Positions 1 to 25,306 of a stretch of DNA of 27,507 nt are shown piece after piece. The position numbers and the translations under genes were made by a program. Location: the IMG/VR virus record IMGVR_UViG_3300046534_001112, positions 1 to 27,507 of that record; one strand, given 5' to 3'. The stretch is from a virus. Within the stretch, counting starts at the first letter, position 1. The number at the start of each line of letters is the position of its first letter. The notes beneath the pieces are model-generated. The model was not told where the DNA came from, did no database searches, and worked only from the letters and a program-made list of their open reading frames with translations.

Positions 1-286
1 TGGCATGGAGGCGTTTTTTCTCGTTGCCCATTATACGGCAGACTTTTAGGCCGGCGAGGTGCGACCATTTCTCTACCTCCCTATGCCATACGTTTTCGGC
101 CACCTTTTTAGGTGCTACCACTAACGCGGTGTCCACGGACAGTTCGTCTTGGAGCTGCTTAAAGGCTGTTAGAGCCGAGATCGTTTTGCCCAACCCCATT
201 TCGAGCAGTAGTCCGGCCGACTCGTTCTCTATGAGGTGGGTAACGCAATGGAGCTGGTACGCGTGGAGGTTCTTAAAATGTAGCAT
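1..286 (-). CDS. SNF2/DEAD-like DNA helicase, N-terminal part (runs off window)
   Basis: Translated by hand from ATG at 286 to the window edge (95 codons, still open). The N-terminus MLHFKNLHAYQLHCVTHLIE resembles the Q-motif region of phage SNF2-family helicases. It is followed by a Walker A motif (LLLEMGLGKT, about residues 26-35) and a motif Ia-like stretch (TALVVAPKKV). The family uses ATP hydrolysis to translocate on or remodel DNA and is common in phage replication modules beside VRR-NUC and family A polymerase genes. The start overlaps the end of the VRR-NUC gene by 14 nt, so the two are probably translationally coupled. The helicase C-terminal domain lies outside the window, so subfamily cannot be decided. 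Confidence 0.85.
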   Translation of the reverse strand, partial: MLHFKNLHAYQLHCVTHLIENESAGLLLEMGLGKTISALTAFKQLQDELSVDTALVVAPKKVAENVWHREVEKWSHLAGLKVCRIMGNEKKRLHA

Positions 287-6327: not shown

Positions 6328-6341
6328 TTTGATTATATTTA

Positions 6342-6398
6342 GAAAGCTAACCGCTTTCGTTAGTACAAATATACAACCACTTAACCCACTCTTGCAAC
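6342..6398 (-). promoter_or_regulatory. Promoter module, copy 1, with 5' hairpin
   Basis: On the minus strand: -33 box GTTG (6395-6398), exactly 21 bp, then -7 box TATATTTG (6366-6373), fitting the Bacteroidota consensus. Seven bp further comes a hairpin with 6-bp arms GAAAGC (6353-6358 on the complement) and GCTTTC (6342-6347) and a 5-nt loop. The same arrangement recurs at 9896-9952 and 12058-12114, with the spacer and most flanking bases conserved. It drives the 95-residue gene starting at 6327. Upstream of the -33 box this copy diverges from the other two. Confidence 0.8.
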
Positions 6399-6440
6399 TA
6401 TTACAAATATTTTCTTTAAACTTTGTTTAAATGGGGGTCT

Positions 6441-9578: not shown

Positions 9579-9881
9579 TTAGTCGGCGAGGGTTGCGTTA
9601 TAGACGTCCCCGGAAGGGTATACGACCATGCCGGTAAGTTCGTTAGTTTTACGTGCGGTCAGTTGGCGAAGTTCGTGGCCCTCTACGACGATGTGGTATA
9701 CCGCCCGCATATAGGAGTTGCCCGGGACACAAACCATTTTCACACCGTACTTGCGCGCGTAGTGCAATGCGGCCTCGCAAGCGGCCATTTTGTCCCCCGG
9801 GCTTTTTTTCCAAGTACTTACCGGTGCTACCATCTTTTTAGCGTCTAAAGTGCCGGCGATCTTATTTTCTTGGATAGTCAT
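9579..9881 (-). CDS. Small protein of unknown function, first gene after promoter module 2
   Basis: 100 residues from ATG 9881. The frame is open six codons further to a TTG, but that lies inside the leader hairpin, so the ATG is chosen. It begins MTIQENKIAGTLDAKKMVAP and contains SPGDKMAACEAALHYARKYG and KMVCVPGNSYMRAVYHIVVEG, suggesting a small alpha/beta fold. No family recognised. The leader is nearly identical to that of the gene starting at 12043. Confidence 0.7.
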   Translation of the reverse strand: MTIQENKIAGTLDAKKMVAPVSTWKKSPGDKMAACEAALHYARKYGVKMVCVPGNSYMRAVYHIVVEGHELRQLTARKTNELTGMVVYPSGDVYNATLAD

Positions 9882-9895
9882 GGTGGTTAAGTTTA

Positions 9896-9952
9896 GCAAG
9901 CTACTTGCTTGCGATAGTACAAATATACGACCACCTAACCCACTCTTGCAAC
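9896..9952 (-). promoter_or_regulatory. Promoter module, copy 2, with 5' hairpin
   Basis: On the minus strand: GTTG (9949-9952), 21 bp, TATATTTG (9920-9927), then a hairpin with arms at 9907-9912 and 9896-9901 (GCAAGC/GCTTGC) and a 5-nt loop. Compared with copy 1, one stem pair changes from A-U to C-G with pairing kept. It drives the gene starting at 9881. Confidence 0.85.
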
Positions 9953-9953
9953 T

Positions 9954-9988
9954 ATTACAAAGATTATCTTTGTAATTAGTTTAATTAC
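9954..9988. promoter_or_regulatory. Two overlapping palindromes upstream of promoter copy 2
   Basis: A perfect 10-bp inverted repeat ATTACAAAGA (9954-9963) / TCTTTGTAAT (9967-9976) with a 3-bp spacer overlaps a second perfect one, GTAATTA (9972-9978) / TAATTAC (9982-9988), also with a 3-bp spacer. They lie just upstream of the -33 box and are repeated at 12116-12150. They are candidate activator or repressor sites; they may also act as 3' hairpins for the gene ending at 10010. Confidence 0.55.
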
Positions 9989-10009
9989 TTCGCTAAAACG
10001 TAGCGTTTA

Positions 10010-10342
10010 CTACCTTTTCCGATGGCGTCGTTTAATTATGTTTATGTAGTCATTGTACGCATTGACAGCGAGGCGTAAGCTTTGCTCCGAATATCGCGCC
10101 CACCGTTTCCTACCTAAGAATCTTTTTCCTAACGCCCTCGCCAGCGTTACGGAGTCCGCCGCTACGCTAAGTACAACTATGTAGAGCTCCCCGTTTGCCA
10201 TCTCCATTTTAGTCTCGTAGGATAGACAGTAGTAAGGGCCGTTAGCGATCTCTACCGTAATTAGCCCTTCGCCTTGGGTACAAGGCTGTGCACAAACCGG
10301 TAAGGTCAGTACGAAAAGTATGAATATCGTTATTAGTCTCAT
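10010..10342 (-). CDS. Small secreted protein of unknown function
   Basis: 110 residues from ATG 10342. The upstream in-frame extension runs through repeat R1 and is rejected. The N-terminus MRLITIFILFVLTLPVCAQ is a clear signal peptide with cleavage likely after CAQ. The mature part begins PCTQGEG, has a few cysteines (PYYC) and ends in a basic tail (KRRHRKR). No family recognised. It is the last gene of the repeat-separated array. A secreted phage protein outside the lysis block could act in the host envelope, for example in exclusion of other phages, but nothing in the sequence proves this. Confidence 0.7.
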   Translation of the reverse strand: MRLITIFILFVLTLPVCAQPCTQGEGLITVEIANGPYYCLSYETKMEMANGELYIVVLSVAADSVTLARALGKRFLGRKRWARYSEQSLRLAVNAYNDYINIIKRRHRKR

Positions 10343-10356
10343 AGTGTAGTTATTTC

Positions 10357-10391
10357 GGGTTGGTGCGGTGGGCCAGTCCGCAGGGTGGCCC
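10357..10391 (-). repeat. Intergenic repeat R1
   Basis: Plus-strand core GCGGTGGGCCAGTCCGC followed by AGGGTGGCCC. It is the same element as R2-R6, about 35 bp, placed between two small genes. In the transcribed (minus) strand the arms GCGG and CCGC enclose nine bases, and an outer GGGC can pair with the GCCC inside that loop. Confidence 0.85.
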
Positions 10392-10395
10392 ATTC

Positions 10396-10590
10396 CTATT
10401 TAGTGCGGGTTTCAATTTTTGTTTTCATTAAGTGAATAAATTCAGAATAAGTTTTAGGCTTTTCGCATTCTTCTAAAGGTTTTCTGAGGTCGTCGTGTCC
10501 GTTGAATCTTTGTACCGTTACTTTAGTATTATATCCTAAATCACAACCATAGCTGTTGCTTGCTCTACATCCGTTACAAGTTTTTTTCAT
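10396..10590 (-). CDS. Small cysteine-rich protein, unknown
   Basis: 64 residues from ATG 10590; the in-frame extension upstream runs through repeat R2 and is rejected. It opens MKKTCNGCRASNSYGCDLGY, giving CxxC plus two further cysteines, a possible zinc site. The C-terminal half is charged (YSEFIHLMKTKIETRTK). By eye the gene is clearly more AT-rich than the GC-rich genes around it, suggesting separate origin. Function unknown. Confidence 0.7.
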   Translation of the reverse strand: MKKTCNGCRASNSYGCDLGYNTKVTVQRFNGHDDLRKPLEECEKPKTYSEFIHLMKTKIETRTK

Positions 10591-10606
10591 TTTCGTTGTC
10601 TTTTCA

Positions 10607-10641
10607 GTTGGTGCGGTGGGCAAGTCCGCAGGGTGGCCCGG
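10607..10641 (-). repeat. Intergenic repeat R2
   Basis: Full copy: GTTGGT, then GCGGTGGGCAAGTCCGC, then AGGGTGGCCCGG. It differs from R1 at only one or two positions over about 33 bp, although the genes on the two sides are unrelated. Confidence 0.9.
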
Positions 10642-10658
10642 TTGTGTTGTGCGGGTGA

Positions 10659-10892
10659 CTACAATTCCACTAAATCAAAAAAGCCTTTAGGTAGTTGACT
10701 TTGCGCCACTTTTAGGCAATCTTCGCACATAGACATAGAGCCTTTAAGCCCATCGGTTCCTTCATTCATTTCTGTCGCAATGACTTTAGGTGGGGAAACA
10801 CACCTAATCATTTTGTGCCCGCCGCCGTATGTCATAAAATTTTGACCGTTAGGCTTTTCTGCTTGGCATCTTTCTTTATCTATTGGGAACAT
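10659..10892 (-). CDS. Small protein with zinc-ribbon-like cysteines
   Basis: 77 residues from ATG 10892. Cysteines at 9 (KERCQAE), 31 (IRCVSPP), 56 and 59 (MCEDC) form a spaced pattern like small zinc-binding proteins. It ends SQLPKGFFDLVEL. Base composition is AT-rich relative to flanking repeats and neighbours. No family named with confidence. It sits between R3 and R2. Confidence 0.65.
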   Translation of the reverse strand: MFPIDKERCQAEKPNGQNFMTYGGGHKMIRCVSPPKVIATEMNEGTDGLKGSMSMCEDCLKVAQSQLPKGFFDLVEL

Positions 10893-10919
10893 AATCTTAT
10901 TTGGATTTATTGAACTAAA

Positions 10920-10948
10920 GCGGCGGGCAAGTCCGCAGGGTGGCCCGG
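10920..10948 (-). repeat. Intergenic repeat R3
   Basis: Copy GCGGCGGGCAAGTCCGC followed by AGGGTGGCCCGG. It lacks the GTTGGT edge of R1, R2 and R6 but keeps the core and its pairing. Confidence 0.85.
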
Positions 10949-10971
10949 CTATTAAAATTATTGATATGCAG

Positions 10972-11166
10972 CTACAATGAGGTAAACGTTTCTGGGTAAT
11001 CCCTACGCAACACCCTCGCGCCTAATAGGTCTTGTAATTTATGGAAGCTGCCTACCCATTCGGTTATTTCCATTGGGTGCGTTCCGTCTAATTCTATGAA
11101 ATTATTGTGTGCTTCTACAAGTAAATTCATAATCTTTTGTTCTTTCTCTGTAAATGGTTTTTTCAA
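10972..11166 (-). CDS. Small conserved-type phage protein, unknown function
   Basis: 64 residues from ATG 11166, opening MKKPFTEKEQKIMNLLVEAH and ending GARVLRRDYPETFTSL. The combination of a helical N-terminus, THPMEITEWV and a C-terminal LRRDYP resembles short hypothetical proteins often seen in Bacteroidota phages; this is recollection of a pattern, not a search result. AT-rich like the two genes after it. Function unknown. Confidence 0.7.
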   Translation of the reverse strand: MKKPFTEKEQKIMNLLVEAHNNFIELDGTHPMEITEWVGSFHKLQDLLGARVLRRDYPETFTSL

Positions 11167-11180
11167 TTTAGCTTTTTTTT

Positions 11181-11200
11181 GGTCCGCAATGGGGCCCGGC
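11181..11200 (-). repeat. Intergenic repeat R4 (half copy)
   Basis: Only one half is present: GGTCCGCAATGGGGCCCGGC on the plus strand. The GCGGTGGGC half is replaced by a T-rich stretch. The remaining part matches the same half of R6. Confidence 0.7.
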
Positions 11201-11208
11201 CATTAAGA

Positions 11209-11421
11209 TTACGCCAACTTATTATCGGCGAGCCATAAAGTGTGCTCCTCGTCTGCGCGTATGGCCGTTACCGCTCGGATAATATACCCATCGTTTACGT
11301 GTGCCTCGCCTACTGTTATGGCGTTTTCCGGAGATGTTGCACGCACCATCCCGGACACTAATACGGTGGTATTTCGGCGAGTGTGGTAGGCTATCGACAC
11401 TACGTAATTGTGCATGGTCAT
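11209..11421 (-). CDS. Small protein of unknown function
   Basis: 70 residues from ATG 11421 (a second ATG two codons later is equally possible). It has a beta-strand-like N-terminus (MHNYVVSIAYHTRRNTTVLV), a helical middle (SPENAITVGEAHV) and an acidic end. GC-rich with codon use like the main phage genes, unlike the three AT-rich cassettes downstream. No family recognised. Confidence 0.65.
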   Translation of the reverse strand: MTMHNYVVSIAYHTRRNTTVLVSGMVRATSPENAITVGEAHVNDGYIIRAVTAIRADEEHTLWLADNKLA

Positions 11422-11426
11422 TTATT

Positions 11427-11451
11427 GGGTTGAAGCGGTGGGCAAGTCCGC
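11427..11451 (-). repeat. Intergenic repeat R5 (partial copy)
   Basis: GGGTTGAA followed by GCGGTGGGCAAGTCCGC; the GGGTGGCCC half is replaced by unrelated sequence. Complement to R4, which keeps the other half. Confidence 0.8.
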
Positions 11452-11472
11452 GATTAAGTCCATTTAGGTGGT

Positions 11473-11739
11473 TTACTTACCGGCCACCGTTACGGTGCCT
11501 CGGCCGGACGCCCGGTAGGCTTCTTCTAGCAAAGAGGTCTCGGTAAAGTACTGGGAGGTCATTCTTACGGTCTGACCTATGAGCTCGGCCGTTATGAAAT
11601 GGCCGACCGCCCGTGTGGGGTCGGCATAAATCATACCGTTAATGGTGGTGAGTCTACCGAGCGTGGCTTTGGCGGCGGCGGTAGATACGGCGGTGATAAT
11701 TACGGTGGCCGATACGGAGTATATCATTACGGTGTTCAT
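11473..11739 (-). CDS. Small protein, paralogue of the 11813-12043 product
   Basis: 88 residues from ATG 11739. It shares the opening MNTV-IYSVS, AAAK-LGRL, NGM-Y, a conserved S-YFT-TSLLE block and the ending GRGTV with the 76-residue neighbour. The main difference is an extra hydrophobic stretch (ATVIITAVST) after the first ten residues. The pair is a tandem duplication separated by repeat R6. No known family; the product is probably a small soluble protein. Confidence 0.7.
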   Translation of the reverse strand: MNTVMIYSVSATVIITAVSTAAAKATLGRLTTINGMIYADPTRAVGHFITAELIGQTVRMTSQYFTETSLLEEAYRASGRGTVTVAGK

Positions 11740-11755
11740 GGTATTGTTCTTTATT

Positions 11756-11790
11756 GGGTTGGTGCGGTGGGCAAGTCTGCAATGGGGCCC
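11756..11790 (-). repeat. Intergenic repeat R6
   Basis: Copy GGGTTGGT, then GCGGTGGGCAAGTCTGC, then AATGGGGCCC. One arm base is changed (CTGC for CCGC), which would leave a mismatch in the minus-strand hairpin. It separates the two paralogous genes. Confidence 0.85.
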
Positions 11791-11812
11791 TTTAGGTGGT
11801 CGGGGTTGGTTA

Positions 11813-12043
11813 TTAGGCTACCGTTCCGCGCCCGGCTGCGCGTCTGGCTATCTCTAGCAAAGAGGTCTTGGTAAAGTACCGGGAGGTAATTTTAACTTTG
11901 TCTCCGCTAAGTATCCCGGCCGCCAACGTGCTAGAATTTGCGTGGTTGCGGCTGGTATAGACCATCCCGTTAAATGATGCTAATCTACCGAGTGCGCTTT
12001 TCGCGGCGGCACGTGATACGGAGTATATGGTTACGGTGTTCAT
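11813..12043 (-). CDS. Small protein, first gene of the repeat-separated array
   Basis: 76 residues from ATG 12043; six further codons to a TTG fall in the leader hairpin and are rejected. It begins MNTVTIYSVSRAAAKSALGR and ends TSLLEIARRAAGRGTVA. It is paralogous to the product of 11473-11739. Its leader is almost identical to that of the 9881 gene although the proteins differ, so the promoter-leader was duplicated separately from the coding parts. Function unknown. Confidence 0.7.
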   Translation of the reverse strand: MNTVTIYSVSRAAAKSALGRLASFNGMVYTSRNHANSSTLAAGILSGDKVKITSRYFTKTSLLEIARRAAGRGTVA

Positions 12044-12057
12044 GGTAGTTAAGTTTA

Positions 12058-12114
12058 GCAAGCTACTCGCTTACGATAGTACAAATATACGACCCCCTAA
12101 CCCACTATTGCAAC
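12058..12114 (-). promoter_or_regulatory. Promoter module, copy 3, with 5' hairpin
   Basis: On the minus strand: GTTG (12111-12114), 21 bp, TATATTTG (12082-12089), then hairpin arms GTAAGC (12069-12074) and GCTTGC (12058-12063) around a 5-nt loop. At the second stem position this copy has a U-G pair where copies 1 and 2 have A-U and C-G. It drives the repeat-separated array. Confidence 0.85.
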
Positions 12115-12115
12115 T

Positions 12116-12150
12116 ATTGCAAAGATTATCTTTGTAATTAGTTTAATTAC
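12116..12150. promoter_or_regulatory. Two overlapping palindromes upstream of promoter copy 3
   Basis: ATTGCAAAGA (12116-12125) / TCTTTGTAAT (12129-12138), imperfect at one position, overlaps a perfect GTAATTA (12134-12140) / TAATTAC (12144-12150). Same layout and distance to the -33 box as at 9954-9988. Confidence 0.55.
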
Positions 12151-12154
12151 TTTG

Positions 12155-12937
12155 CTAAAACAGCCTTTCGGCTGCCGCCTTATGACATTCAGCTATTCGG
12201 TTTTCGCCCAAAGCAAAGTATTCCCCCTCTTGCTCCATACAAATATATTTGCGCTCGGTATTAAGGCAAGCCACAGCCGTGGTAAATGAACCGGCGCAGT
12301 TGTCCAAAACCGTTTCACCTTCGTTGGTGTAGGTTTTAATGAGGTACTCGAATAGGGGTACGGGCTTTTGGGTTGGGTGTAATCCTCTGCCAGTCCTTAC
12401 GTTAAAGCGTAACTGCGTTGTCGGGAACTTATGGGTATATGTTTTTACGGTGTCGCCGAACTCTTTGGATTTTTCGGTTATGGCTAACCGTATTGCCTTG
12501 TTTTTACTCTGTCCATTTCCGCCACTTTTTATAGGCTTATCCCTTTTTACCATTTGAGGGAAATACAAAGGCTGCTTTCCCGTCTTGCTAAAAACAATTA
12601 CCTCCTCGTGGTCCTTTAACGGTTGCCGCTTTGCTTGTACAAAATTGGCGGCAAACTTTTTATCCCAAATAAAAGAGTGCGCAAACCCTTTTAAATTACT
12701 CATTATCAACGCACTGGTAAAAGGTTGGCTGCCAAACAACACAATAGCCCCATTATCCTTTATAACCCTCTTGTACTGCCCCCAAAGTGGACCGAAAGGT
12801 ATTACGGTGTCCCACTTGCAATCGGTCGTACCATAAGGCAAATCGCAAAGTATCATATCAATACTTCCGTCTGGTATTTCTTTCATCAGTTCCAAACAAT
12901 CGCCTTTGTGAATGGAACTTGTTTTAGGGTTAATCAT
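12155..12937 (-). CDS. DNA adenine-type methyltransferase (beta-class order)
   Basis: 260 residues from ATG 12937. The catalytic motif IV is DLPYG (residues 32-36), near the N-terminus, after KGDCLELMKEIPDG. The AdoMet-binding motif I lies near the C-terminus (VLDNCAGSFTTAVAC, about 210-224), preceded by HPTQKPVPLFEYLI. This order defines beta-class N6-adenine or N4-cytosine methylases; DLPY favours adenine. The second glycine of the usual GSGT is replaced by F (SFTT). No restriction enzyme lies beside it, so it is probably an orphan methylase that protects or marks phage DNA. Base composition is more AT-rich than the replication genes. The start is 12 bp after the lysozyme gene. Confidence 0.88.
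   Translation of the reverse strand: MINPKTSSIHKGDCLELMKEIPDGSIDMILCDLPYGTTDCKWDTVIPFGPLWGQYKRVIKDNGAIVLFGSQPFTSALIMSNLKGFAHSFIWDKKFAANFVQAKRQPLKDHEEVIVFSKTGKQPLYFPQMVKRDKPIKSGGNGQSKNKAIRLAITEKSKEFGDTVKTYTHKFPTTQLRFNVRTGRGLHPTQKPVPLFEYLIKTYTNEGETVLDNCAGSFTTAVACLNTERKYICMEQEGEYFALGENRIAECHKAAAERLF
12157..12174 (-). terminator. Terminator-like hairpin embedded in the end of the methylase gene
   Basis: On the minus strand CAGCC-GAAA-GGCTG followed by TTTT (12174 down to 12157). The stem lies in the last codons and the T-run merges with the stop codon. Copy 3 of the promoter module begins about 40 bp further on, so this would separate two transcription units. The stem is short (5 bp) but has a stable GAAA loop. 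Confidence 0.55.
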
Positions 12938-12949
12938 GGGTTGGTTCTT

Positions 12950-13636
12950 TTAAAAAGATTTTCGACTATGGTTGTTAACGATCCGTTGAAGGTCCACGGC
13001 GAGCTCTTGGCGCTCCTCGGCAGACGTTAGGAGAAAGGCCGCCTCCGAGTTCCGCCTATTGGTCAGGCCGTCCAGCACCTTGCCCGCCGACTTATTGTAC
13101 ATGGGCATTACGGCGGCCACCTTGGCGAGATCTCCCGACCTTATAGCGCGGTTAAGGCGGGGCCCGAAGCGGCTAACGTTGTAGTCCATGACGGACAGGA
13201 CCAATGCCGGCCACTCGTCGACGCATGGGTACCTCCTCCGTATATCCTTATGGACGATATCGAAAACCCGTGTGGTCCTTATATCGGCCTCCTTTTTACT
13301 TATCGTCTCCGTGCGGGATAAGGCTTTGGTTCCCCAACCGTTGCGGTATGCGTTTACGTCCCACGTGGCTTTTGGCGTTAGCGCCTCCCACCTCTTAACC
13401 ATTAGCATCGCTATCTCTTTGTCGGAGTATTGCGGAGAGCATGGGGCCGGGGCCGGTAGGTTCGGCAGTCCGTAAAGCCTTATCGGTGACGTCGTAGGGT
13501 ACATACTGCTGGCTGGTAGGCTTTTTAGTCGGTAGGTCGGGGAGCCCGAGAGATAATTGCGCGTCGAAATCGTATTCATCTTCGCAAGAGTTGAAGATAC
13601 GAGAACTAGGAGTATTACGTTTATTAGACATTTCAC
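12950..13636 (-). CDS. GH24-like lysozyme (endolysin) with N-terminal signal-like segment
   Basis: 228 residues if started at GTG 13636. The catalytic region reads RWEALTPKATWDVNAYRNGW then GT: a Glu, nine residues later an Asp (WDVN), ten later a Thr, the E-D-T triad seen in phage-type muramidases with the WDVN-x-(5-8)-GT pattern. Downstream VDEWPALVLSVMDYNVSRFG and the basic C-terminus fit the GH24 fold. It cuts cell-wall glycan at lysis. The N-terminus MKCLINVILLVLVSSTLA looks like a signal peptide, suggesting Sec export. However, residues 20-65 are not well formed, and a second frame is open here from ATG 13631, so the true N-terminus is uncertain. Confidence 0.75.
   Translation of the reverse strand: MKCLINVILLVLVSSTLAKMNTISTRNYLSGSPTYRLKSLPASSMYPTTSPIRLYGLPNLPAPAPCSPQYSDKEIAMLMVKRWEALTPKATWDVNAYRNGWGTKALSRTETISKKEADIRTTRVFDIVHKDIRRRYPCVDEWPALVLSVMDYNVSRFGPRLNRAIRSGDLAKVAAVMPMYNKSAGKVLDGLTNRRNSEAAFLLTSAEERQELAVDLQRIVNNHSRKSF
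13395..13631 (-). CDS. Overlapping out-of-frame ORF at the lysozyme 5' end
   Basis: 78 residues from ATG 13631, five bases after the GTG of the lysozyme frame and in a different phase. It reads MSNKRNTPSSRIFNSCEDEY, then an acidic and proline-rich stretch with LGLPDLPTKKPTSQQYVPYD, and stops where the lysozyme catalytic part begins. Composition looks like a natural soluble linker domain. Three possibilities exist: a separate small protein, the true N-terminus of the lysozyme joined by a frameshift, or a chance frame. Sequence alone does not decide. Confidence 0.35.
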   Translation of the reverse strand: MSNKRNTPSSRIFNSCEDEYDFDAQLSLGLPDLPTKKPTSQQYVPYDVTDKALRTAEPTGPGPMLSAILRQRDSDANG

Positions 13637-13676
13637 GAAGTTATATTTGGTTAAGGATACCGGCAGGGCCGGGGCG

Positions 13677-13684
13677 CAAAGGTA
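13677..13684 (-). promoter_or_regulatory. Possible -7 box for the lysozyme-methylase unit
   Basis: TACCTTTG on the minus strand fits TAnnTTTG and lies about 40-50 nt before the candidate starts at 13636 and 13631, between the regulator stop and the lysozyme. A matching -33 box at 20-21 bp is not seen (GTAG instead of TTTG), so the promoter may be weak or need an activator. Confidence 0.35.
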
Positions 13685-13688
13685 GGGG

Positions 13689-14603
13689 TTAAAGGGCCAT
13701 GTTGTCTACGAACCCCCATTTGCCCGAAGGTAGGAACACGGCCGTTACGTCGTGTTCCACGCAAGCGGCCCGGAGTTGGTGGAGTCTTGGGTTCGGTGAA
13801 GGCACAAAAAGAGGCTTGGTAGTGCCGTCTATTTGTTTTTGGTCAAAAGTAGTCCCCGATAAACCCTGCCGGAAGTGGTGAGGGCTAGGTAGGCTACTTG
13901 GATCAAACACGGCGGCACTCCCGGTCTCCGTAATCAATATAGCCACGCCGAGGGTACCACTAAGTTCACGGCACAGTAACGCGGTCAGCCCTCTGTCTTT
14001 GGCGGGTTCGCCCGACATTAGCATACTTACGACACCTTGTACTATATTAAGGGATTTGGCAACCTTGGATTGGGTAATGTTAGCGTAAACCAACACCTCC
14101 GATAGACTTATATGCGTCTTGGGGTTAATAGGAGTATCGGCGCGAACTGGTACAAGGCCTTTCGGTGTGGTGTAGTTACGGCCGTCGAGCGCGTAGTACA
14201 CCTCGACACTTAATAGGTCGCATATCCCGGAAACAAGCGGCGCCCTCTTCGTGTGTAGCTCGGGCCACGTATCCTCTATATCCCGCGCAACGTGGCGAGG
14301 TAGAGGCTTTGAGGGTATCCGGCTGCCGAAGTCGTCAAGGTTCCAACCTTTCATACGCCGGAATTGCCCAAGGGTCATACCGGGGAGCTCCGACGGTGGG
14401 AAAGGTTCGGCCACCCGGAGGCCGTCGGCGGTTTGTAGTGTGGGCCAACCTAAGTGTTTAAGGATGGCGACCGTGGAGGCCGTTGGACCGTTGGGCCATT
14501 GGTTCTCACAGTTGAAAACGGTGGCCGTGGAGAGACCGACGCCCCGGGCAAAATCGGCCCGGGAAAGGCCGGCGATTTGGCGTAGTTTTTTCGGATTAAG
14601 CAT
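13689..14603 (-). CDS. Phage regulator with three helix-turn-helix segments
   Basis: 304 residues from ATG 14603. Three separate regions look like XRE-type HTH domains: residues 5-50 (KKLRQIAGLSRADFARGVGL then STATVFNCEN), 76-115 (MTLGQFRRMKGWNLDDFGSR), and 166-205 (ISLSEVLVYANITQSKVAKS then IVQGVVSMLMSG). The last about 80 residues lack a recognisable peptidase motif, so it is not a LexA/CI-type self-cleaving repressor. It faces leftward next to the control region with repeated TGTTGACAA sites, one of them 20 bp before its own start. This suggests an autoregulated switch protein. The first HTH is the best supported. Confidence 0.7.
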   Translation of the reverse strand: MLNPKKLRQIAGLSRADFARGVGLSTATVFNCENQWPNGPTASTVAILKHLGWPTLQTADGLRVAEPFPPSELPGMTLGQFRRMKGWNLDDFGSRIPSKPLPRHVARDIEDTWPELHTKRAPLVSGICDLLSVEVYYALDGRNYTTPKGLVPVRADTPINPKTHISLSEVLVYANITQSKVAKSLNIVQGVVSMLMSGEPAKDRGLTALLCRELSGTLGVAILITETGSAAVFDPSSLPSPHHFRQGLSGTTFDQKQIDGTTKPLFVPSPNPRLHQLRAACVEHDVTAVFLPSGKWGFVDNMAL

Positions 14604-14622
14604 GTAATTTATTAAAAATTCC

Positions 14623-14631
14623 TGTTGACAA
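14623..14631 (+). promoter_or_regulatory. Putative operator site 1 (TGTTGACAA)
   Basis: TTCC then TGTTGACAA, ending 28 bp upstream of the regulator coding region and downstream of its promoter. The 13-bp block TTCCTGTTGACAA is identical to site 3. Confidence 0.5.
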
Positions 14632-14705
14632 ATTAGTGGTGGTGGCGGGCGATTTTTACGTATATATGGCCATTTTAACCTAAAACGCTATTTACGGCCG
14701 TGCTG

Positions 14706-14737
14706 CAAAAGTACATCGTTTTCGATTACCTACCAAA
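14706..14737 (-). promoter_or_regulatory. Leftward promoter of the regulator gene
   Basis: On the minus strand: TTTG (14734-14737), 20 bp, TACTTTTG (14706-14713), an exact TAnnTTTG match with CA following, as in the promoter at 8985-9017. It leaves a leader of about 95 nt before the ATG at 14603 that contains operator site 1. Confidence 0.7.
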
Positions 14738-14804
14738 TTTATATAGGTTTTCTTTTGAGTATTTGCGTTGTAGTGGGTATTGGGTGACGGTTGGCAGGTC
14801 GGAT

Positions 14805-14833
14805 TTGTCAACACGGAAAATTCCTGTTGACAA
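14805..14833. promoter_or_regulatory. Inverted operator pair (sites 2 and 3)
   Basis: TTGTCAACA (14805-14813) and TGTTGACAA (14825-14833) face each other; GGAA and TTCC inside extend the symmetry, with one extra C on the left. It is the only place in the window where the motif is paired, about 70 bp upstream of the regulator -33 box. A dimeric or multi-HTH regulator could bind here. Confidence 0.6.
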
Positions 14834-14912
14834 CTGAAATGACCAAAACCCGCATAAACAAAGGGTTTAATAAATTTTGTACTAAAAGCTAAATCTAAAT
14901 ATATACTAGTCA

Positions 14913-14995
14913 AATTAAAGTAGAGTTACTAAATAAGTAATAGAGATACAGTAAAATAGGGATTACTGATTTAGTAATCGTACTTTACTTTAATT
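14913..14995. promoter_or_regulatory. Nested palindromes in the control region
   Basis: Outer 10-bp arms AATTAAAGTA (14913-14922) and TACTTTAATT (14986-14995) enclose two inner palindromes with 5-bp spacers: TTACT-aaata-AGTAA (14926-14940) and GATTACT-gattt-AGTAATC (14961-14979). The two inner centres are 37 bp apart. The inner half-site ATTACT/AGTAAT recurs. This could be a second regulator's operator, an origin, or both. Confidence 0.6.
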
Positions 14996-15016
14996 GGGTG
15001 GTGGGCTTCTTATTTC

Positions 15017-15025
15017 TGTTGACAA
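15017..15025 (+). promoter_or_regulatory. Putative operator site 4 (TGTTGACAA)
   Basis: TTTC then TGTTGACAA, about 100 bp upstream of the gpZ-like start, so it is placed to control rightward transcription. Same orientation as sites 1 and 3. Confidence 0.5.
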
Positions 15026-15127
15026 TTTATAAAAATCGCCTTTACCTAGCAAAAATATATACGGATTTTATGAGTGTTATTTTCGCGCCTTTTTCGACCA
15101 TTGTTTTACTTTTCGTATCTTGCCAAC

Positions 15128-15727
15128 ATGGCCCAAATAGACGTCAGCGACGCGGTACGGACATTTCGAGGACTGCACACCGATTTGACCGGTGCGCAGT
15201 TTGATAAGAACGTGGCGGGCGCATTGAACCACACCGCCCGTAAGGTGAGGACCCGTACTAGCATAGAGGTGCGAAGGTTATATCGAATTAAAGCTAAAGA
15301 CGTAAAGAAATCTATATCGTTAGGGCCTGCCATGGTGACCAATCTAACCGCGACGATACGGATATCAGGTAAGCGCCTACCCATTAGGGCGTTCCCACAT
15401 AGGCAGACCCGCAAGGGCGTGTCCGTGTCTATCCTTAAGGGCCCCCGGAGGGTCATACACAAGGCTTTTGTATCGTCTATGGGGAATGGACACCAAGGGG
15501 TGTTCGCCCGGGGGGAGTATAAAGCTAAAGGGTTCGGATTTAGGTACAAGAGGACGGCACCTAGTAGGGGTAATGATCTTGGCATTAGTGAACTACTGAC
15601 TACAAGCGTACCACAAGCCGCCGCGCGTAAGATCATATTACAGAAACAACGCCGAGGTGTGGAGGCGGACTTTCCTAAAAGGTTGTCCCACCTGTTAGGT
15701 CGCGCGTCGGCACGCGTAAGGTCTTAA
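15128..15727 (+). CDS. Prophage minor tail protein Z (gpZ)-like
   Basis: 199 residues from ATG 15128; the upstream in-frame GTG at 15074 would add an unlikely hydrophobic N-terminus. The pattern FDKNVAGALNHTARKVRTRT, then RLYRIKAKDVKKSI, then a glycine/arginine-rich middle with an AFVSSMGNGHQGVFAR-type segment and a C-terminal ISELLTTSVPQ fits the gpZ family (tail completion or tail-tube-linked protein). The protein is strongly basic. It is the first rightward gene, far from the other tail genes and separated from the terminase block by a 200-bp gap, an unusual place for a tail gene. Confidence 0.7.
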   Translation: MAQIDVSDAVRTFRGLHTDLTGAQFDKNVAGALNHTARKVRTRTSIEVRRLYRIKAKDVKKSISLGPAMVTNLTATIRISGKRLPIRAFPHRQTRKGVSVSILKGPRRVIHKAFVSSMGNGHQGVFARGEYKAKGFGFRYKRTAPSRGNDLGISELLTTSVPQAAARKIILQKQRRGVEADFPKRLSHLLGRASARVRS

Positions 15728-15928
15728 GGCATACTTAAGTGCCTGACTTCCATAAAATTAGCGCGGGTCCTTCCCCGAAAAGGAGCGATGCGGGTAGTCT
15801 AGCCCCGGAAACGCACTAGTTTAAAATTCTGAAATGGCAGGGACGACCAAATTATATTTGGCGCGTTAAAATTTGGAGTTGTCATTTAGGCCGCACTATA
15901 TTTGCCCCGAAGCAAAACACAAATCCAA
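15728..15928 (+). other. Structured intergenic region before the packaging genes
   Basis: 201 bp without a gene. It holds GGCA/TGCC arms right after the gpZ stop, a hairpin TCCTT/AAGGA near 15770-15785, a longer-range pairing TGCG/CGCA enclosing GGG/CCC near 15788-15814, and the promoter at 15872-15904. No T-run terminator, tRNA or known riboswitch was recognised. Lying just ahead of the terminase genes it could hold a packaging site. Confidence 0.4.
15872..15904 (+). promoter_or_regulatory. Rightward promoter of the packaging/head unit
   Basis: TTTG (15872-15875), 21 bp, TATATTTG (15897-15904), the same -7 octamer and spacing as in the three leftward modules. A second TATATTTG at 15853-15860 lies upstream but lacks a good -33 box. 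The first ATG follows 25 bp later at 15929. The module hairpin is absent. Confidence 0.75.
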
Positions 15929-16309
15929 ATGAGAACATCCACCCTCGACTCCTCGGAATTAGATACGCTATTTATAGAGCTTGACGATTTAACATCGCTA
16001 GTGACCCAATACACTAAAGATTACGAACGGGCAACCCAACGGTTGCAGTACTCGAACTCCGAGTACTTCGGCGTTCAAAATAAGCTCCAAGAGCTCCTCG
16101 CTAAACATATCGGTCAAAATGCGATCCCGGCAGACAACGGACCTAATTACCTGCAACACGCCGGGAAATTGTGGACGTACTGGTACACCTTAGAAACCGG
16201 CGACATATCCATGCTTATACCGGCCGAGGACCTGTTGGAGATCCGCCCGGAGGCTACCGGTACGACCCTGCGCTCCCGCGCAACCAAAACCCTTGGGACT
16301 AATGAATAA
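15929..16309 (+). CDS. Small protein with N-terminal coiled coil, unknown
   Basis: 126 residues from ATG 15929; an in-frame TTG at 15902 lies inside the -7 box and is rejected. The first 70 residues are helical with heptad-like spacing (LFIELDDLTSLVTQYTKDYE, then LQYSNSEYFGVQNKLQELLA). The C-terminal part has tryptophan and tyrosine (KLWTYWYTLETGD). No family recognised. It is the first gene of the rightward unit and overlaps the next gene by 8 nt. Confidence 0.7.
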   Translation: MRTSTLDSSELDTLFIELDDLTSLVTQYTKDYERATQRLQYSNSEYFGVQNKLQELLAKHIGQNAIPADNGPNYLQHAGKLWTYWYTLETGDISMLIPAEDLLEIRPEATGTTLRSRATKTLGTNE

Positions 16310-16556
16310 GATAACCCCCGAACTGATTGAGAGCGCCATTATCTCCGAGGAGATAATGAATACGACCCGGTCTACCATCGTTATCCTAACCCTGCGTAAT
16401 GGGTTCGAGGTCGTCGGCACCTCCGGCGTGGTAGATCCCGCAAGGTTTGACCTTACGATAGGGTACGACGTGGCCTACCGGCGTGCGGTTTCCAAAGTGT
16501 GGGAACTGGAAGGGTACCTACTTCAAGATAAACTCCGCATGGCTAATGGACAATAA
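16302..16556 (+). CDS. N4 gp49/Sf6 gp66-family protein
   Basis: 84 residues from ATG 16302, overlapping the previous gene by 8 nt. The core ILTLRNGFEVVGTSGVVDPA followed by FDLTIGYDVAYRRAV and KVWELEGYLLQDKL matches the conserved pattern of this small phage family (NGF-V-G-S, DP-F, G---AY--A---W-LEGY-L). Its molecular function is not known; it is common near head or late genes. The DP-F and LEGYLL blocks make the family call good. Confidence 0.8.
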   Translation: MNKITPELIESAIISEEIMNTTRSTIVILTLRNGFEVVGTSGVVDPARFDLTIGYDVAYRRAVSKVWELEGYLLQDKLRMANGQ

Positions 16557-17169
16557 ACCCAAGGCCAAAAGAGGTAGGGGCCGACCGCCCGGCGCTAAGA
16601 ACAAAAACAAAGCTAAAACCGTTACGACCACCGAGCTCGCCAAGATACTCGGAGTATCTACGGGCAAACTACGGACGGCCATAGCCACCGGACGGGTGCC
16701 CGCTACGTGCTATACCAAAGACGGAGGCCGCACCGGCACGTATCGGTTTGACGAAAAATCAGCAGTACGGGAGTACCGGGAAAACGCGAACCACAAAAGT
16801 ATCAATAAAAAATATTTGGCGGCTAACCCGGGCCTCGACCCAAGCGCGGCGGCCCCCACGGATAAAACGAAGATGGGCAAGGGCCAAGCCACGCTCACCC
16901 AAATTCGCCAAGATACCGAGCTCCTAAATTACGAGAAAAAATTGCTTGAGTTGGAGCAGCTCAAAGGTACCCTCGTCGTTAAGGCGGAGGTATATATGGA
17001 GCTATATGCGCACGGCCAACGGGTACGCCAAGCGATCCAAAGCGTACCTAAAAGAACCATCGACGATATCCGGGCCGCGTCCAATCGTACGGAAGCGGCC
17101 AAGATTCTCTCGGACGCTCTGGACGACGCGTTGCGCGTCCTCGCCGACGCTGACCACTTAAAAATATAA
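16546..17169 (+). CDS. Terminase small subunit-like protein
   Basis: 207 residues from ATG 16546, overlapping the previous gene by 11 nt. An N-terminal basic segment KAKRGRGRPPGAKNKNK contains an AT-hook-like RGRP core. It is followed by a helix-turn-helix (TTELAKILGVSTGKLRTAIA, about residues 28-47) of the Nu1/MerR-like winged type, then a coiled coil (TELLNYEKKLLELEQLKGTL) for oligomerisation. Small terminases bind the packaging site on the DNA and regulate the large subunit. The large subunit follows two small genes later. The assignment rests on HTH, coiled coil and position. Confidence 0.75.
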   Translation: MDNKPKAKRGRGRPPGAKNKNKAKTVTTTELAKILGVSTGKLRTAIATGRVPATCYTKDGGRTGTYRFDEKSAVREYRENANHKSINKKYLAANPGLDPSAAAPTDKTKMGKGQATLTQIRQDTELLNYEKKLLELEQLKGTLVVKAEVYMELYAHGQRVRQAIQSVPKRTIDDIRAASNRTEAAKILSDALDDALRVLADADHLKI

Positions 17170-17174
17170 ACGTA

Positions 17175-17396
17175 ATGGCTAAAATATACATTCAAGATTT
17201 ACGGGCTAAATTCTCCGGTAAGCCCGAGGTGGAAATACCAGAGGGGGCCACCCTACGTTTTGAACTCCCGAGCGGGAATATGTGCGTAAGCGTAGAGGAC
17301 GGGGTTCTAAAGATTAGAAAGCATGGCTCCGGCCTAAGTTACGACGATCAAATAAACCTCCGTCCGGTAGTACAAAACCGGATCGATATAAGTTAA
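17175..17396 (+). CDS. Small protein of unknown function
   Basis: 73 residues from ATG 17175, five bases after the small terminase. It is beta-rich (KPEVEIPEGATLRFELPSGN then MCVSVEDGVLKIRKHG), suggesting a small barrel. No signal or membrane segment. Function unknown; gpA-type phages often have small genes between the terminase subunits. Confidence 0.65.
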   Translation: MAKIYIQDLRAKFSGKPEVEIPEGATLRFELPSGNMCVSVEDGVLKIRKHGSGLSYDDQINLRPVVQNRIDIS

Positions 17397-17400
17397 TAGA

Positions 17401-17586
17401 ATGACCAACAAAAAACTATTCACCTTCGCATGGTTCGCGCTCACACTTACGGTATGCCTCGCGATTGCGGTAGGCGAAAAATGGACCTCCCGGCTCTCCG
17501 AGGTCTTTACCTTCATAGCATGCGCCGCCGGGGCCGGTAGCGCCATGCTCGGCCTATGGGCCGGATTAAAAGATTTAGATAACTAA
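17401..17586 (+). CDS. Two-helix membrane protein, holin candidate
   Basis: 61 residues from ATG 17401. Helix 1 is about residues 6-24 (LFTFAWFALTLTVCLAIAV), helix 2 about residues 34-54 (VFTFIACAAGAGSAMLGLWA). A short polar turn with EKWTSR lies between. Size and topology fit small class II-type holins, but the lysozyme is on the other arm, so the role is not secure. Its stop is directly followed by the ATG of the large terminase with no gap. Confidence 0.65.
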   Translation: MTNKKLFTFAWFALTLTVCLAIAVGEKWTSRLSEVFTFIACAAGAGSAMLGLWAGLKDLDN

Positions 17587-19476
17587 ATGACCCAACCCGT
17601 ACACCTCGCCGGCTTTCTGGACGGGCTCCGCCCGGCCGTCCACCTCCTTCCGTCGGAGTGGGCGGATGAACGTCGTTTTTTATCTTCAAGCGCGGCGGCC
17701 GAGCCCGGCCGGTGGAGGACTGACCGGACCCCGTATCTACGGGAGATAATGGACTGTTTCGATATTTATAGCGAGGTGCAAGAGGTGGTCATAATGAAGG
17801 GCGCCCAATTAGGACTTACTGAGGCCGGCTTCAACGTGGCGGGCTATTTCATCGATATGGACCCGTGCCCAATTATGTACGTTATGCCTACCGACGCCAC
17901 CGTTAAGCGTAACTCTAAGCTCCGATTTGACCCAATGGTTCGGGAGAGTCCTACGCTCGCCGCTAAGGTCTCCGCCGGTAGCTCGCGTAGCAAGTCCAAT
18001 ACCATGCTGCAGAAAGATTACCCGGGCGGAACTATGATTTTCCAAGGGGCCAACACGGCCTCCGGCCTCCGCTCCGTGCCGATCCGCGTTTTGATTTTCG
18101 ACGAAACCGACGCCTTCCCCTCCGATCTCGACGGTGAGGGCTCACCCATCGAATTAGGCTTGGCACGTACCCGCACCTTTGAGGGCACCAAAAAGGTACT
18201 TAAGATATCCACGCCGACGCTCGCCGATACCTCCGTCATAGCTGCCGAATTTGCGAGTACGGACCAACGGTACTACCACATACCTTGCCCCCATTGCGGG
18301 ACGTTCCAAGTGCTGGAATGGGAAAACATTATTTTCGATTCTGACGCCACGCGCGTAACCGAAGCCCACTACCAATGCGAGGGGTGCGAAGTGCTCATTG
18401 AGGAGCGCCATAAAACTAAAATGTTAGCTGCCGGCCAATGGATCGCGACTAACACGGACGGACACGACCCACAGCGTAGGGGGTACCACATCAATAGTTT
18501 TTACTCCCCTCTCGGGTGGTTCTCTTGGGTGTCCGCCGCTAACCAATTCCTAAAGGCTTTTAGGGAACACGATCAAGCAAAAATGAAAGTTTTCGTGAAC
18601 ACGGTACAAGGTAAAGCGTGGGAGGAGACCACCGTAACGCCCCGCGCCCAAGATCTATACGAGCGCCGAGGCGGCTACCGGTCCAAAGAGGTGCCGGCCC
18701 AAGTCACCACACTAACCGCCGGCGTAGACATCCAAGGCGACCGCATAGAGGTGGAGGTGGTCGGGTGGGCACAAGGTATGCGGGCGTACTCCATCGACTA
18801 CGTGGTACTTCCGGGCAACACGAACCAACCGGAAGTTTGGGCCCGACTTTCCCAACTCCTATACACCCCGTACGAACGGGCCGACGGGGCGACCATCGGA
18901 CTCTCACGTATGTGCGTAGACTCGGGCTTTAACACCCAAGAGGTCTACAACTTTTGCCGGGAACATCCCGGGCAAATAGTCGTACCCGTTAAGGGTCAAG
19001 ACAACGATAGACAGAAAGTAATGATACGCCCGCCGCAAGTCGTCGACGTAAAAGCCAACGGTAAGAAAGTTGGCAAAGTTGGTCTTTGGAATTTAGGGGT
19101 AAGTATGATAAAGCAAGAGGTGTACGGCCGCTTAATGCTCGGCCTAACCGCCGCCGGGGACACACCCCCGGGCTATTGCTTTTTTCCCGAAGACTACGAT
19201 ATGACATATTTTAATATGCTCGCCTCGGAGCGCCTTGCCAAGAGATTAACGCCCCAAGGTTACTATAAATTTGTGTGGGAAAAGATACAAGCCCGTAACG
19301 AAGCCCTCGATTGTAGGGTGTACGCCCGGGCGGCGGCGGCCATGCTCGGCCTTGACCGTTGGCGGGACGAACATTGGGAACGTGCCAAGGCCAATGCGTA
19401 CGCCCCGAAGTCCCCTACCGACGCGAAAAAGACGAAACAGAAACCCAAACCCCGAAAGGATAGTATTTGGGGATAA
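17587..19476 (+). CDS. Terminase large subunit, gpA family
   Basis: 629 residues. The ATPase domain has a gpA-type Walker A variant KGAQLGLTE (71-79) after EVQEVVIM, and Walker B VLIFDETDAFP (168-178, D172/E173). A zinc-finger-like set CPHC (234-237) and CEGC (264-267) follows, as in this family. The nuclease domain begins near GVDIQGDRIEVEVVGWA (D381). The C-terminus is lysine- and proline-rich. The protein cuts and pumps DNA into proheads as the packaging motor. Length and domain order are full, with no damage. It follows the membrane-protein gene immediately and precedes a structured gap and the gpW-like gene. Confidence 0.95.
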   Translation: MTQPVHLAGFLDGLRPAVHLLPSEWADERRFLSSSAAAEPGRWRTDRTPYLREIMDCFDIYSEVQEVVIMKGAQLGLTEAGFNVAGYFIDMDPCPIMYVMPTDATVKRNSKLRFDPMVRESPTLAAKVSAGSSRSKSNTMLQKDYPGGTMIFQGANTASGLRSVPIRVLIFDETDAFPSDLDGEGSPIELGLARTRTFEGTKKVLKISTPTLADTSVIAAEFASTDQRYYHIPCPHCGTFQVLEWENIIFDSDATRVTEAHYQCEGCEVLIEERHKTKMLAAGQWIATNTDGHDPQRRGYHINSFYSPLGWFSWVSAANQFLKAFREHDQAKMKVFVNTVQGKAWEETTVTPRAQDLYERRGGYRSKEVPAQVTTLTAGVDIQGDRIEVEVVGWAQGMRAYSIDYVVLPGNTNQPEVWARLSQLLYTPYERADGATIGLSRMCVDSGFNTQEVYNFCREHPGQIVVPVKGQDNDRQKVMIRPPQVVDVKANGKKVGKVGLWNLGVSMIKQEVYGRLMLGLTAAGDTPPGYCFFPEDYDMTYFNMLASERLAKRLTPQGYYKFVWEKIQARNEALDCRVYARAAAAMLGLDRWRDEHWERAKANAYAPKSPTDAKKTKQKPKPRKDSIWG

Positions 19477-19495
19477 GATACCGGCGTGTAGTTCG

Positions 19496-19558
19496 CCCCG
19501 CCGTAGCGCGTTAGTTTTGCTTCAAACACGCCTAACAAGCCACAATCGGCGGGGTTTT
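19496..19558 (+). terminator. Two-helix structure with T-run after the large terminase gene
   Basis: Perfect 8-bp arms CCCCGCCG (19496-19503) and CGGCGGGG (19547-19554) followed by TTTT. Inside the 43-nt loop, GTTAG (19510-19514) and CTAAC (19532-19536) form a second helix. It resembles a terminator with an elaborated loop; part of the transcription may end here. A TAGTTTTG box inside (near 19512) could be a -7 element but lacks a -33 box. Confidence 0.5.
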
Positions 19559-19597
19559 ATACGTTTTATGCCTACCTTTAGCCAAAATTACATATAG

Positions 19598-19825
19598 ATG
19601 GCAGCTACCACACCCCCCAAACTATATACCGAAGCTATGTACTTGGCGCTTGGTAAGGCCGTAGCCGAGGGCGTAAAGCAAGTCCAGTACTCCGACAAAA
19701 TGGTTACGTACCGCTCACTCGCCGAGATGAGAGAGATACTAGCACTAATGCGGGCGGAACTGTACCCGGAGAGTCCATTGGGATCCCGGAGTCGCCGCGT
19801 CGGGTATTACAGTTCTGGAAAATAA
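19598..19825 (+). CDS. gpW-like head-tail joining protein
   Basis: 75 residues from ATG 19598, between large terminase and portal as is gpW in lambda. The pattern of a first helix (MYLALGKAVAEGVKQVQYSD), a small beta turn (VTYRSLAEM), a second helix and a basic C-terminus (GSRSRRVGYYSSGK) matches the gpW fold family of about 65-75 residues. gpW closes the portal pore and provides the tail attachment site. It ends 7 bp before the portal start. Confidence 0.75.
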   Translation: MAATTPPKLYTEAMYLALGKAVAEGVKQVQYSDKMVTYRSLAEMREILALMRAELYPESPLGSRSRRVGYYSSGK

Positions 19826-19832
19826 ACACCCC

Positions 19833-21350
19833 ATGAATTTAATTGATCGCACCATAGCCTACGTGGCCCCACGCGCCGCACTAAAACGGATGCAAGCCCG
19901 AGCCGCCATTGGCGGCCTCGACGAACTGGTACGTAAGTTTGACGGCGCCACGCGCGGCCGACGCGGCAAAGGTTGGGACGCCCGCGCAACCTCGGCAAAT
20001 ACCGAAATCGAACGGGAGGGCTCCATTGTGCGGTATCGCGCCCGGGACCTCGTACGAAACAATCCGTGGGCCCGCAAGGCTGCACAAGTGGTGAAAACGA
20101 ACGTAGTAGGATCCGGCATAAAAGCGAGCCTCCGCGCCGAGGGTAAGAGCAAAGCCCAACGGCGTTTCGTCGAGACCGCTAAAACTCTCTGGAAAAATTG
20201 GGCGGAAACCACCGCATGCGATTTTTACAAGCGCAAAAATCTATACAGTATCCAGCGCCAAGTAATGCAGCACGTTTTCGTGGATGGCGAGGTGCTGGTA
20301 CGGCAGCGTAGGAACAAAAACCTAACCATACCGGTAGAGCTCCAAGTTCTGGAAATTGACTACCTAGACACCACTAGAACCGTTACGCGGATTTCGGAGG
20401 GCGGCGGGTACATCGACCAAGGCGTCGAAATGGACGGCGACGGGCGCGTAGTGGCATACTATCTATACCAACAACACCCGGGCAATAACACCGTGTGGCA
20501 AAGCCTCGTATCCATCCGCGTACCCCGGGAGGAGATACTGCACATATACCACGAGGAACGCGCGGGACAGATACGGGGAGTCTCCGAAATGGCGGCCTCT
20601 ATGTTACGCCTACGGGACTACGACGAATACGAGGACGCGCAATTGATCCGGCAAAAAATCGCGGCATGTTTCGCGGTGTTCATCCACGGTGACGAGTCAG
20701 GACTACCGGGCGAGGACGGAGGCGATGGCTACGATTTCGAGCGATTAGAGCCCGGTATGATTGAACGTTTACCGGCGGGTAAAGAGGTGTCGTTTGCATC
20801 TCCTCCCGAGACTTCCGATTACGACCCTTACACCCGACGCGTACTACAAGGCGTTTCGGCCGGCATGGGCGTCACGTACGAGTCCATGACAAACGACTAC
20901 TCCAACGTAAATTTTAGTTCGGCCCGTATGGGGTGGATAGAAACCGGACGTAGGTACGCCGAATTTCAAGCCGACGTCGTACAAGTACAACTTTGCGCCC
21001 CGGCGTGGGAGTGGTTCTTACAAGCCGCCCGCGTAGCGGGGAAATTACCCGCTAGGGGAGAATTTATTGTGAGTTGGACGCCACCCCGGCGCGAAATGAT
21101 CGACCCGGTAAAGGAAACCGAGGGACTAAGCGCGCAAGTACGTGCCGGCTTTGTCGCGTGGCAAGATGTAGTCCGCCAACTCGGGGGTGACCCGGAGGAG
21201 GTAGTGGCCAAGATGAAAGAGGACCGGGATATTTTCGACACCCTCGACGCCAAGTTTACTACCGACCCCCGGTGGGACCCCGCCCGTAAACCGGAAGCCG
21301 ACCCGGAGGCGGGAGTGAAACCCGCGAAGGCCAAAAAACCTACCGAATAG
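19833..21350 (+). CDS. Portal protein, lambda family
   Basis: 505 residues, full length for the lambda-type portal family (Phage_portal_2). Seen features: a basic N-terminus, GSIVRYRARDLVRNNPWARK near residue 65, VVGSGIKASL near 90, an HVFVDGEVLVRQR segment near 145-157, and IYHEERAGQIRGVSEMA near 240. The later YESMTNDYSNVNFSSARMGW motif is highly characteristic. The C-terminus is charged and proline-rich. The portal forms the dodecameric vertex through which DNA enters and to which tail parts attach. It lies between the gpW-like and capsid genes, as expected. Confidence 0.93.
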   Translation: MNLIDRTIAYVAPRAALKRMQARAAIGGLDELVRKFDGATRGRRGKGWDARATSANTEIEREGSIVRYRARDLVRNNPWARKAAQVVKTNVVGSGIKASLRAEGKSKAQRRFVETAKTLWKNWAETTACDFYKRKNLYSIQRQVMQHVFVDGEVLVRQRRNKNLTIPVELQVLEIDYLDTTRTVTRISEGGGYIDQGVEMDGDGRVVAYYLYQQHPGNNTVWQSLVSIRVPREEILHIYHEERAGQIRGVSEMAASMLRLRDYDEYEDAQLIRQKIAACFAVFIHGDESGLPGEDGGDGYDFERLEPGMIERLPAGKEVSFASPPETSDYDPYTRRVLQGVSAGMGVTYESMTNDYSNVNFSSARMGWIETGRRYAEFQADVVQVQLCAPAWEWFLQAARVAGKLPARGEFIVSWTPPRREMIDPVKETEGLSAQVRAGFVAWQDVVRQLGGDPEEVVAKMKEDRDIFDTLDAKFTTDPRWDPARKPEADPEAGVKPAKAKKPTE

Positions 21351-21384
21351 GTTTTATACGTAAAATATCCGTATTATTGCCGCA

Positions 21385-23415: not shown

Positions 23416-23442
23416 CCGCCGACCGCTCCACGAGCACCGCAT

Positions 23443-23485
23443 AACGGGGCCGCCGCCACATACGGGGGCGGCCCCGTTTTCTTTT
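23443..23485 (+). terminator. Strong rho-independent terminator after the capsid gene
   Basis: Perfect 12-bp arms AACGGGGCCGCC (23443-23454) and GGCGGCCCCGTT (23467-23478) with a 12-nt loop, followed by TTTTCTTTT. It stands between the capsid and decoration genes and should limit read-through, giving more capsid than downstream message. Confidence 0.9.
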
Positions 23486-23513
23486 CAAAACCAAAACTTA
23501 ACCTTTTTCTAAG

Positions 23514-23834: not shown

Positions 23835-23844
23835 ACAGAACCTT

Positions 23845-24216: not shown

Positions 24217-24220
24217 CCTT

Positions 24221-24754: not shown

Positions 24755-24756
24755 CC

Positions 24757-25293: not shown

Positions 25294-25306
25294 AAAATAC
25301 CCTACA

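Follow-up and report, generated by a model that had tools for sequence, protein, structure and literature searches.

The DNA analysed here (the window) is an IMG/VR record of an uncultured phage whose minus strand carries the genes for a primase-helicase, a DNA polymerase, a Gp2.5-like ssDNA-binding protein and an exonuclease, and whose plus strand carries those for terminase, portal, a head-protease fusion and tail proteins. In positions 21385-23415 the head protein and the maturation protease appear to form a single fusion of 676 aa (phrog_4523). Another IMG/VR contig, 3300046534_000979 (G004; L231), belongs to the same phage and overlaps both ends of the window, by 127 and 180 bases. Together the two contigs suggest a circular map of approximately 46.5 kb, a size obtained by arithmetic and not by assembly. 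Judged from promoter type alone, the host would belong to the phylum Bacteroidota.

Seven small open reading frames follow one another on the minus strand between positions 12043 and 10010, as an earlier note on this DNA had claimed, and each of the six gaps between them bears a copy of one repeat (Table 1). For gene 4, homologous small proteins were found in Vibrio phages and other phages at no more than 49% identity (phrog_13916); the label 'DNA ligase' carried by that family looks like a propagated misannotation when set against a product of 64 aa. Relatives of gene 2 were also searched for, and none was found beyond the sister contig 3300047667_000909 (G001). The description of the genes as mostly unrelated needs one exception, the paralogous pair of genes 1 and 2, with 57% amino acid identity. 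Their similarity extends into the repeat that follows each gene, and part of the array therefore represents a tandem duplication of a gene together with its repeat.

The three genes at 10396-11166 were indeed AT-rich, with the G+C contents given in Table 1 against an average of 53.6% for windows of matching size in the rest of the genome. Such AT-richness was reached by only 0.5-1.9% of the genome windows. The remaining four array genes had 47-55% G+C, and the base composition of the array breaks at the repeats.

Table 1. Features of the array and related features (window coordinates unless another contig is named; R1-R6, repeat copies).
Feature	Position	Strand	Remarks
Window			IMG/VR virus record, 27.5 kb
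Promoter/operator repeat before array	12040-12161	-	promoter 12113-12082, TTGCAA...TATATTTG, Bacteroidota-type
Array gene 1	11813-12043	-	76 aa; no family; paralogue of gene 2
R6	11756-11790	-	full-length (GGGCCCCATTGCAGACTTGCCCACCGC), one stem position mutated; ATG of gene 2 24 nt on
Array gene 2	11473-11739	-	88 aa; no family; paralogue of gene 1
R5	11427-11461	-	3' half intact (GCGGACTTGCCCACCGC); 5' half degraded (GGACTTAATC)
Array gene 3	11209-11421	-	70 aa; 51% GC; no family
R4	11182-11197	-	5' half only (GGGCCCCATTGCGGAC); A-rich leader replaces 3' half and leader
Array gene 4	10972-11166	-	64 aa; apparent TTG start; 38.5% GC; phrog_13916 homologue
R3	10920-10946	-	full repeat
Array gene 5	10659-10892	-	77 aa; 41.5% GC; no relative found
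R2	10607-10639	-	full repeat; site where sister genome G001 turns to other downstream sequence
Array gene 6	10396-10590	-	64 aa; 33.8% GC; no clear relative
R1	10357-10391	-	full repeat, one substitution: ACTG for ACTT
Array gene 7	10010-10342	-	110 aa; hydrophobic N-terminus; no family
Second promoter/operator copy	9878-9999	-	closes array, opens next transcription unit (gene 9579-9881)
Overlaps of window with G004	27381-27507 and 1-180		matched to L231
G002 promoter-leader repeats	14466-14559, 14923-15016, 16350-16443 of L226		

Copies of a promoter/operator repeat of approximately 95-120 bp, with the pattern TTG-N21-TATATTTG, precede three minus-strand transcription units. The copy before the array is 94% identical to the one that closes it, and further copies were located at 6338-6430 of the window and in G001 (L025 9754-9847). 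Transcription from one promoter had been proposed for the array, and in agreement with this neither a Bacteroidota-type promoter nor a terminator-like site was found on the minus strand inside it; one promoter of this type lies before the first gene. The copies at 9878 and 12040 also contain a near-perfect palindrome of 23 nt (ATTACAAAGATTATCTTTGTAAT; 12116-12138 in the latter), probably the site bound by a phage repressor with joint control over several early operons.

The repeat in the gaps is an element of approximately 30 bases which in gene sense reads ACCGGGC-N5..8-GCGG-[A/C]CTT-GCCC-A-CCGC. Its 17-bp core was present in five copies (10365, 10613, 10920, 11435 and 11764), all in a single orientation; when the window was shuffled by dinucleotide 100 times, no shuffle reached this number (mean 0.65). 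With these five cores and the half copy R4, the claim of one element in one orientation in all six gaps held. R4 and R5 were both said to keep only one half of the element; this was correct for R4, where an A-run leader follows the 5' half in gene sense, and nearly so for R5, whose 5' half is degraded and not lost. One further copy, R7, was detected in the same phage outside the array. By including six copies from contig 3300046534_001019 (G002; L226) and one from contig 3300047666_000648 (G003; L046) alongside R1, R2, R3, R5, R6 and R7, a set of 13 good copies from three phage types was obtained, in which 14 columns were invariant. An Rfam search of the array gave two chance-level matches only (E 3.3 and 4.7), neither of them on a repeat.

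All 13 good copies are intergenic and lie on the gene-sense strand, after a stop codon and ahead of the next gene. Between the end of the element and the following ATG lie 22 nt for R1 and R2, 27 nt for R3, 13 nt for R5 and 24 nt for R6; outside the array the figure is 22 nt for R7, 25 nt for the G003 copy and 22 nt for one of the G002 copies, so that 8 of the 13 stand 13-27 nt ahead of an ATG. The other G002 copies are placed differently, three at 70-86 nt from an ATG and two directly 5' of a terminator hairpin. The element is thus mainly start-associated, with exceptions in G002. R7 precedes a gene weakly matching replication/recombination families and is located away from the accessory array. 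The traits of start-associated phage repeats in general, namely numerous short and nearly identical copies in intergenic gaps only, one orientation at a short and fixed distance from the start codon, and retention before different gene families in different phages, are all shown by the family described here, which is real and well conserved.

Within the element two G+C stems of 4 bp each can be drawn, GGGC/GCCC and GCGG/CCGC, and these interleave. Pairing was found in 98.1% of the stem cells, compared to 37-58% when the partners were slid against each other, and the mismatches consist of an A-C break in two copies and one G-U in one copy. Nearly all conserved columns belong to the stems or to the short L2/L3 loops, and the L1 spacer (5-8 nt) is free in both sequence and length. 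There were no compensatory double changes, because the stems hardly vary, and the covariation test accordingly has little power. Considered as single hairpins, most copies gained nothing in stability over shuffled sequence (z from -2.2 to +0.5). Possible folds are an H-type pseudoknot and a pair of alternative hairpins.

Scans of IMG/VR for the element identified G001, G004, G002 and G003. The terminase genes are common to G002 and G003, and the window shares with G003 a tail protein (91% aa identity) and the methyltransferase adjoining the array (87% aa identity over the 89 aa present at the G003 contig end). At E 1e-4 neither G002 nor G003 yielded a homologue of any array gene. The element thus recurs beside genes without detectable homology to those of the array, and its conservation exceeds that of the neighbouring genes. 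This is what the earlier note had expected from other phages, the same repeat with different genes, and the opposite of the pattern it had named as contrary to its proposal, the same genes separated by decaying repeats. Through the small terminase subunit, G002, G003 and one short contig without the repeat were recovered as relatives. None of the relatives identified through their DNA polymerase (42 loci) or through their methyltransferase (79 loci, not counting the sister) carried the repeat. Wider pattern matches in IMG/VR beyond the contigs named above were judged by their context, G+C-rich and mostly coding sequence, to be due to chance. A pattern scan of genome contigs gave, among the matches listed, G+C-rich chance matches, and a BLAST search of isolated phages with the repeat gave partial chance matches only.

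A comparison with the sister contig bears most directly on gene exchange. G001 and positions 10613-27507 of the window differ by one mismatch in 16,895 bases, yet directly downstream of the R2 core G001 departs from the window for 35 bases, at its contig end. These 35 bases carry an R1-type leader (CACCAACCCGAAATAACT) followed by a different gene start, and were not found elsewhere in IMG/VR. The abrupt change at R2 supports the cassette idea, on the strength of 35 bases at a contig end, where misassembly may be responsible. R1 and the G001 copy are units of element and leader of one type before unrelated genes. Similarly, R2 and R7 are 87.5% identical over 56 nt of element and leader, with the alignment ending at the ATG and the genes downstream unrelated, and R5 and R6 are like units of element and leader before unrelated genes. 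In G002 a promoter-leader repeat of 94 nt continues into the coding sequence of two genes that are otherwise unrelated, covering their first six codons (MQTTMT). These shared units and promoter-leader repeats are best read as footprints of modular joining at gene starts, and the repeat has the look of a reusable module for gene starts, a place where small genes are exchanged. A genome pair differing by one base per 17 kb yet switching gene exactly at a repeat would make the link between repeat and exchange directly testable from reads.

The kind of element is already known from phages. In Cluster K mycobacteriophages, SAS and ESAS are short repeats in one orientation just before the starts of non-structural genes of unrelated families, and their function is open (PMC3203893). 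SAS is a motif of 13 bp, GGGATAGGAGCCC, which occupies the ribosome-binding position at 3-7 bp from the start, and ESAS contains imperfect inverted repeats with a variable spacer (PMC3203893). The present element resembles them in being short, in one orientation and before the starts of unrelated genes. Unlike SAS it has no GGGATAGGAGCCC at the ribosome-binding position, is approximately 30 bp long with two interleaved stems and stands approximately 22 nt from the start, and it occurs in phages with Bacteroidota-type promoters. Motifs of 18-30 bp were described in the short intergenic gaps of Microbacterium phage clusters EC, EG and EI, those of EC and EG being 14-30 bp ahead of starts; the EG motif, a simple 18-bp palindrome, persists where neighbouring genes differ between phages (PMC7302621). 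In the same way the present element is retained while the surrounding genes differ, but its sequence is another one and the Microbacterium motifs come from phages of actinobacterial hosts. By sequence, length and phage group the present family differs from these known cases. All start-associated phage repeats in the literature searched came from actinobacteriophages, and a family in phages with Bacteroidota-type promoters, a setting in which Shine-Dalgarno pairing is seldom employed, offers an independent case.

In the T4-type phages, PeSLs (promoter early stem-loops) are said to lie between small early genes and to be tied to the shuffling of those genes (Arbiol 2010, Comeau 2014). As far as papers citing that work describe them (e.g. 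PMC4503421), each PeSL joins a terminator stem-loop to an early promoter. On these second-hand descriptions the likeness is one of effect, a repeated intergenic module between small genes, and the difference is that the window repeats have neither promoter nor terminator, although two G002 copies do adjoin a terminator. A possible counterpart here of the gene shuffling ascribed to PeSLs is the single abrupt junction at R2, with its 35 bases at a contig end. In G002, two terminators precede promoter-leader repeats, which gives PeSL-like composites of element, terminator and promoter. The REP/BIME elements of enterobacteria are G+C-rich, extragenic and potentially hairpin-forming, and are located between the genes of operons. 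These properties are shared by the present element, which differs in being phage-borne and in its single orientation tied to gene starts. Integron attC sites were dropped as a candidate, since RYYYAAC/GTTRRRY boxes were by inspection absent at the required ends.

The function of the element may be depicted as follows. On balance we hold it probable that the repeat serves expression in phage early and accessory operons, as an intercistronic element associated with gene starts, and that exchange takes place between its copies. It would be transcribed within a polycistronic mRNA, after one stop codon and usually approximately 22 nt before the next ATG, and would act in the leaders of the genes downstream, presumably in the control of translation or of the mRNA. 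Its stems, folded in either of the ways given above, could keep the upstream reading frame and the leader apart, or serve as a binding site for a factor of phage or host. With the same module of element and leader at every start, homologous recombination between copies could swap, add or remove small genes with expression left unspoilt, and the outcome would be a run of unrelated genes, repeats that are hybrids or halves, and differences between strains at a repeat. The conserved orientation, the steady distance to the ATG and the position of R7 before a replication/recombination-type gene suggest that expression at each gene start is the primary job and exchange a consequence. Counted against this explanation are the zero compensatory changes, the unremarkable hairpin energies, the position exceptions in G002 and the exchange case of only 35 bases. 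A bolder form of it, in which a new RNA pseudoknot of Bacteroidota phages insulates and sets translation at starts and serves as a socket for swapping small host-takeover or counter-defence genes within an otherwise clonal population, is put forward tentatively and is doubtful in its full extent.

The lack of covariation, together with a primary sequence conserved far beyond pairing (the 14 invariant columns), would also be expected of a site in double-stranded DNA to which a phage protein binds (a regulator, a nucleoid-type or a replication protein), found near starts since these hold the only non-coding DNA. For ESAS, on a like lack of pairing support, Pope et al. proposed DNA-binding proteins (PMC3203893). 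Such a site is nevertheless unlikely here, because every copy shares the strand of the genes, the gap that separates the 5' GGGC block from the 3' block varies by 3 nt, which is awkward for a rigid site, and the promoter repeats are without any copy of the element.

The earlier note had read the repeats as homology points for swapping or adding gene cassettes, and this was partly supported. As the main function, a recombination point or homology tag of the kind claimed for T4-type PeSLs appears distinctly improbable: a stretch of 27-30 bp is short for exchange by homology, a pure tag needs neither the distance of approximately 22 nt to the ATG nor a fixed strand, and R7 stands outside the accessory array. 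What it does account for is the presence of other genes between the same repeats in other phages, the half and hybrid repeats, the AT-rich block bounded by repeats with its breaks in composition, and the abrupt G001 junction. A non-autonomous mobile element (a REP- or MITE-like palindromic unit) spread by a transposase is very improbable, for although the repeat is short, G+C-rich, extragenic, multi-copy and potentially hairpin-forming and occurs in phages with different genes, it has a strict gene-linked orientation and a fixed start distance, target-site duplications are not apparent, and a pattern search of 395 genomes from the phylum to which a Bacteroidales MAG belongs yielded only a single match, within the MAG itself and apparently due to chance.

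Directly before the repeat copy in G003, a gene at L046 8-328 encodes an anti-restriction domain, DarA_C (Defence against restriction A), matched at E 1.6e-11, hinting that genes bounded by the repeat may include counter-defence functions.
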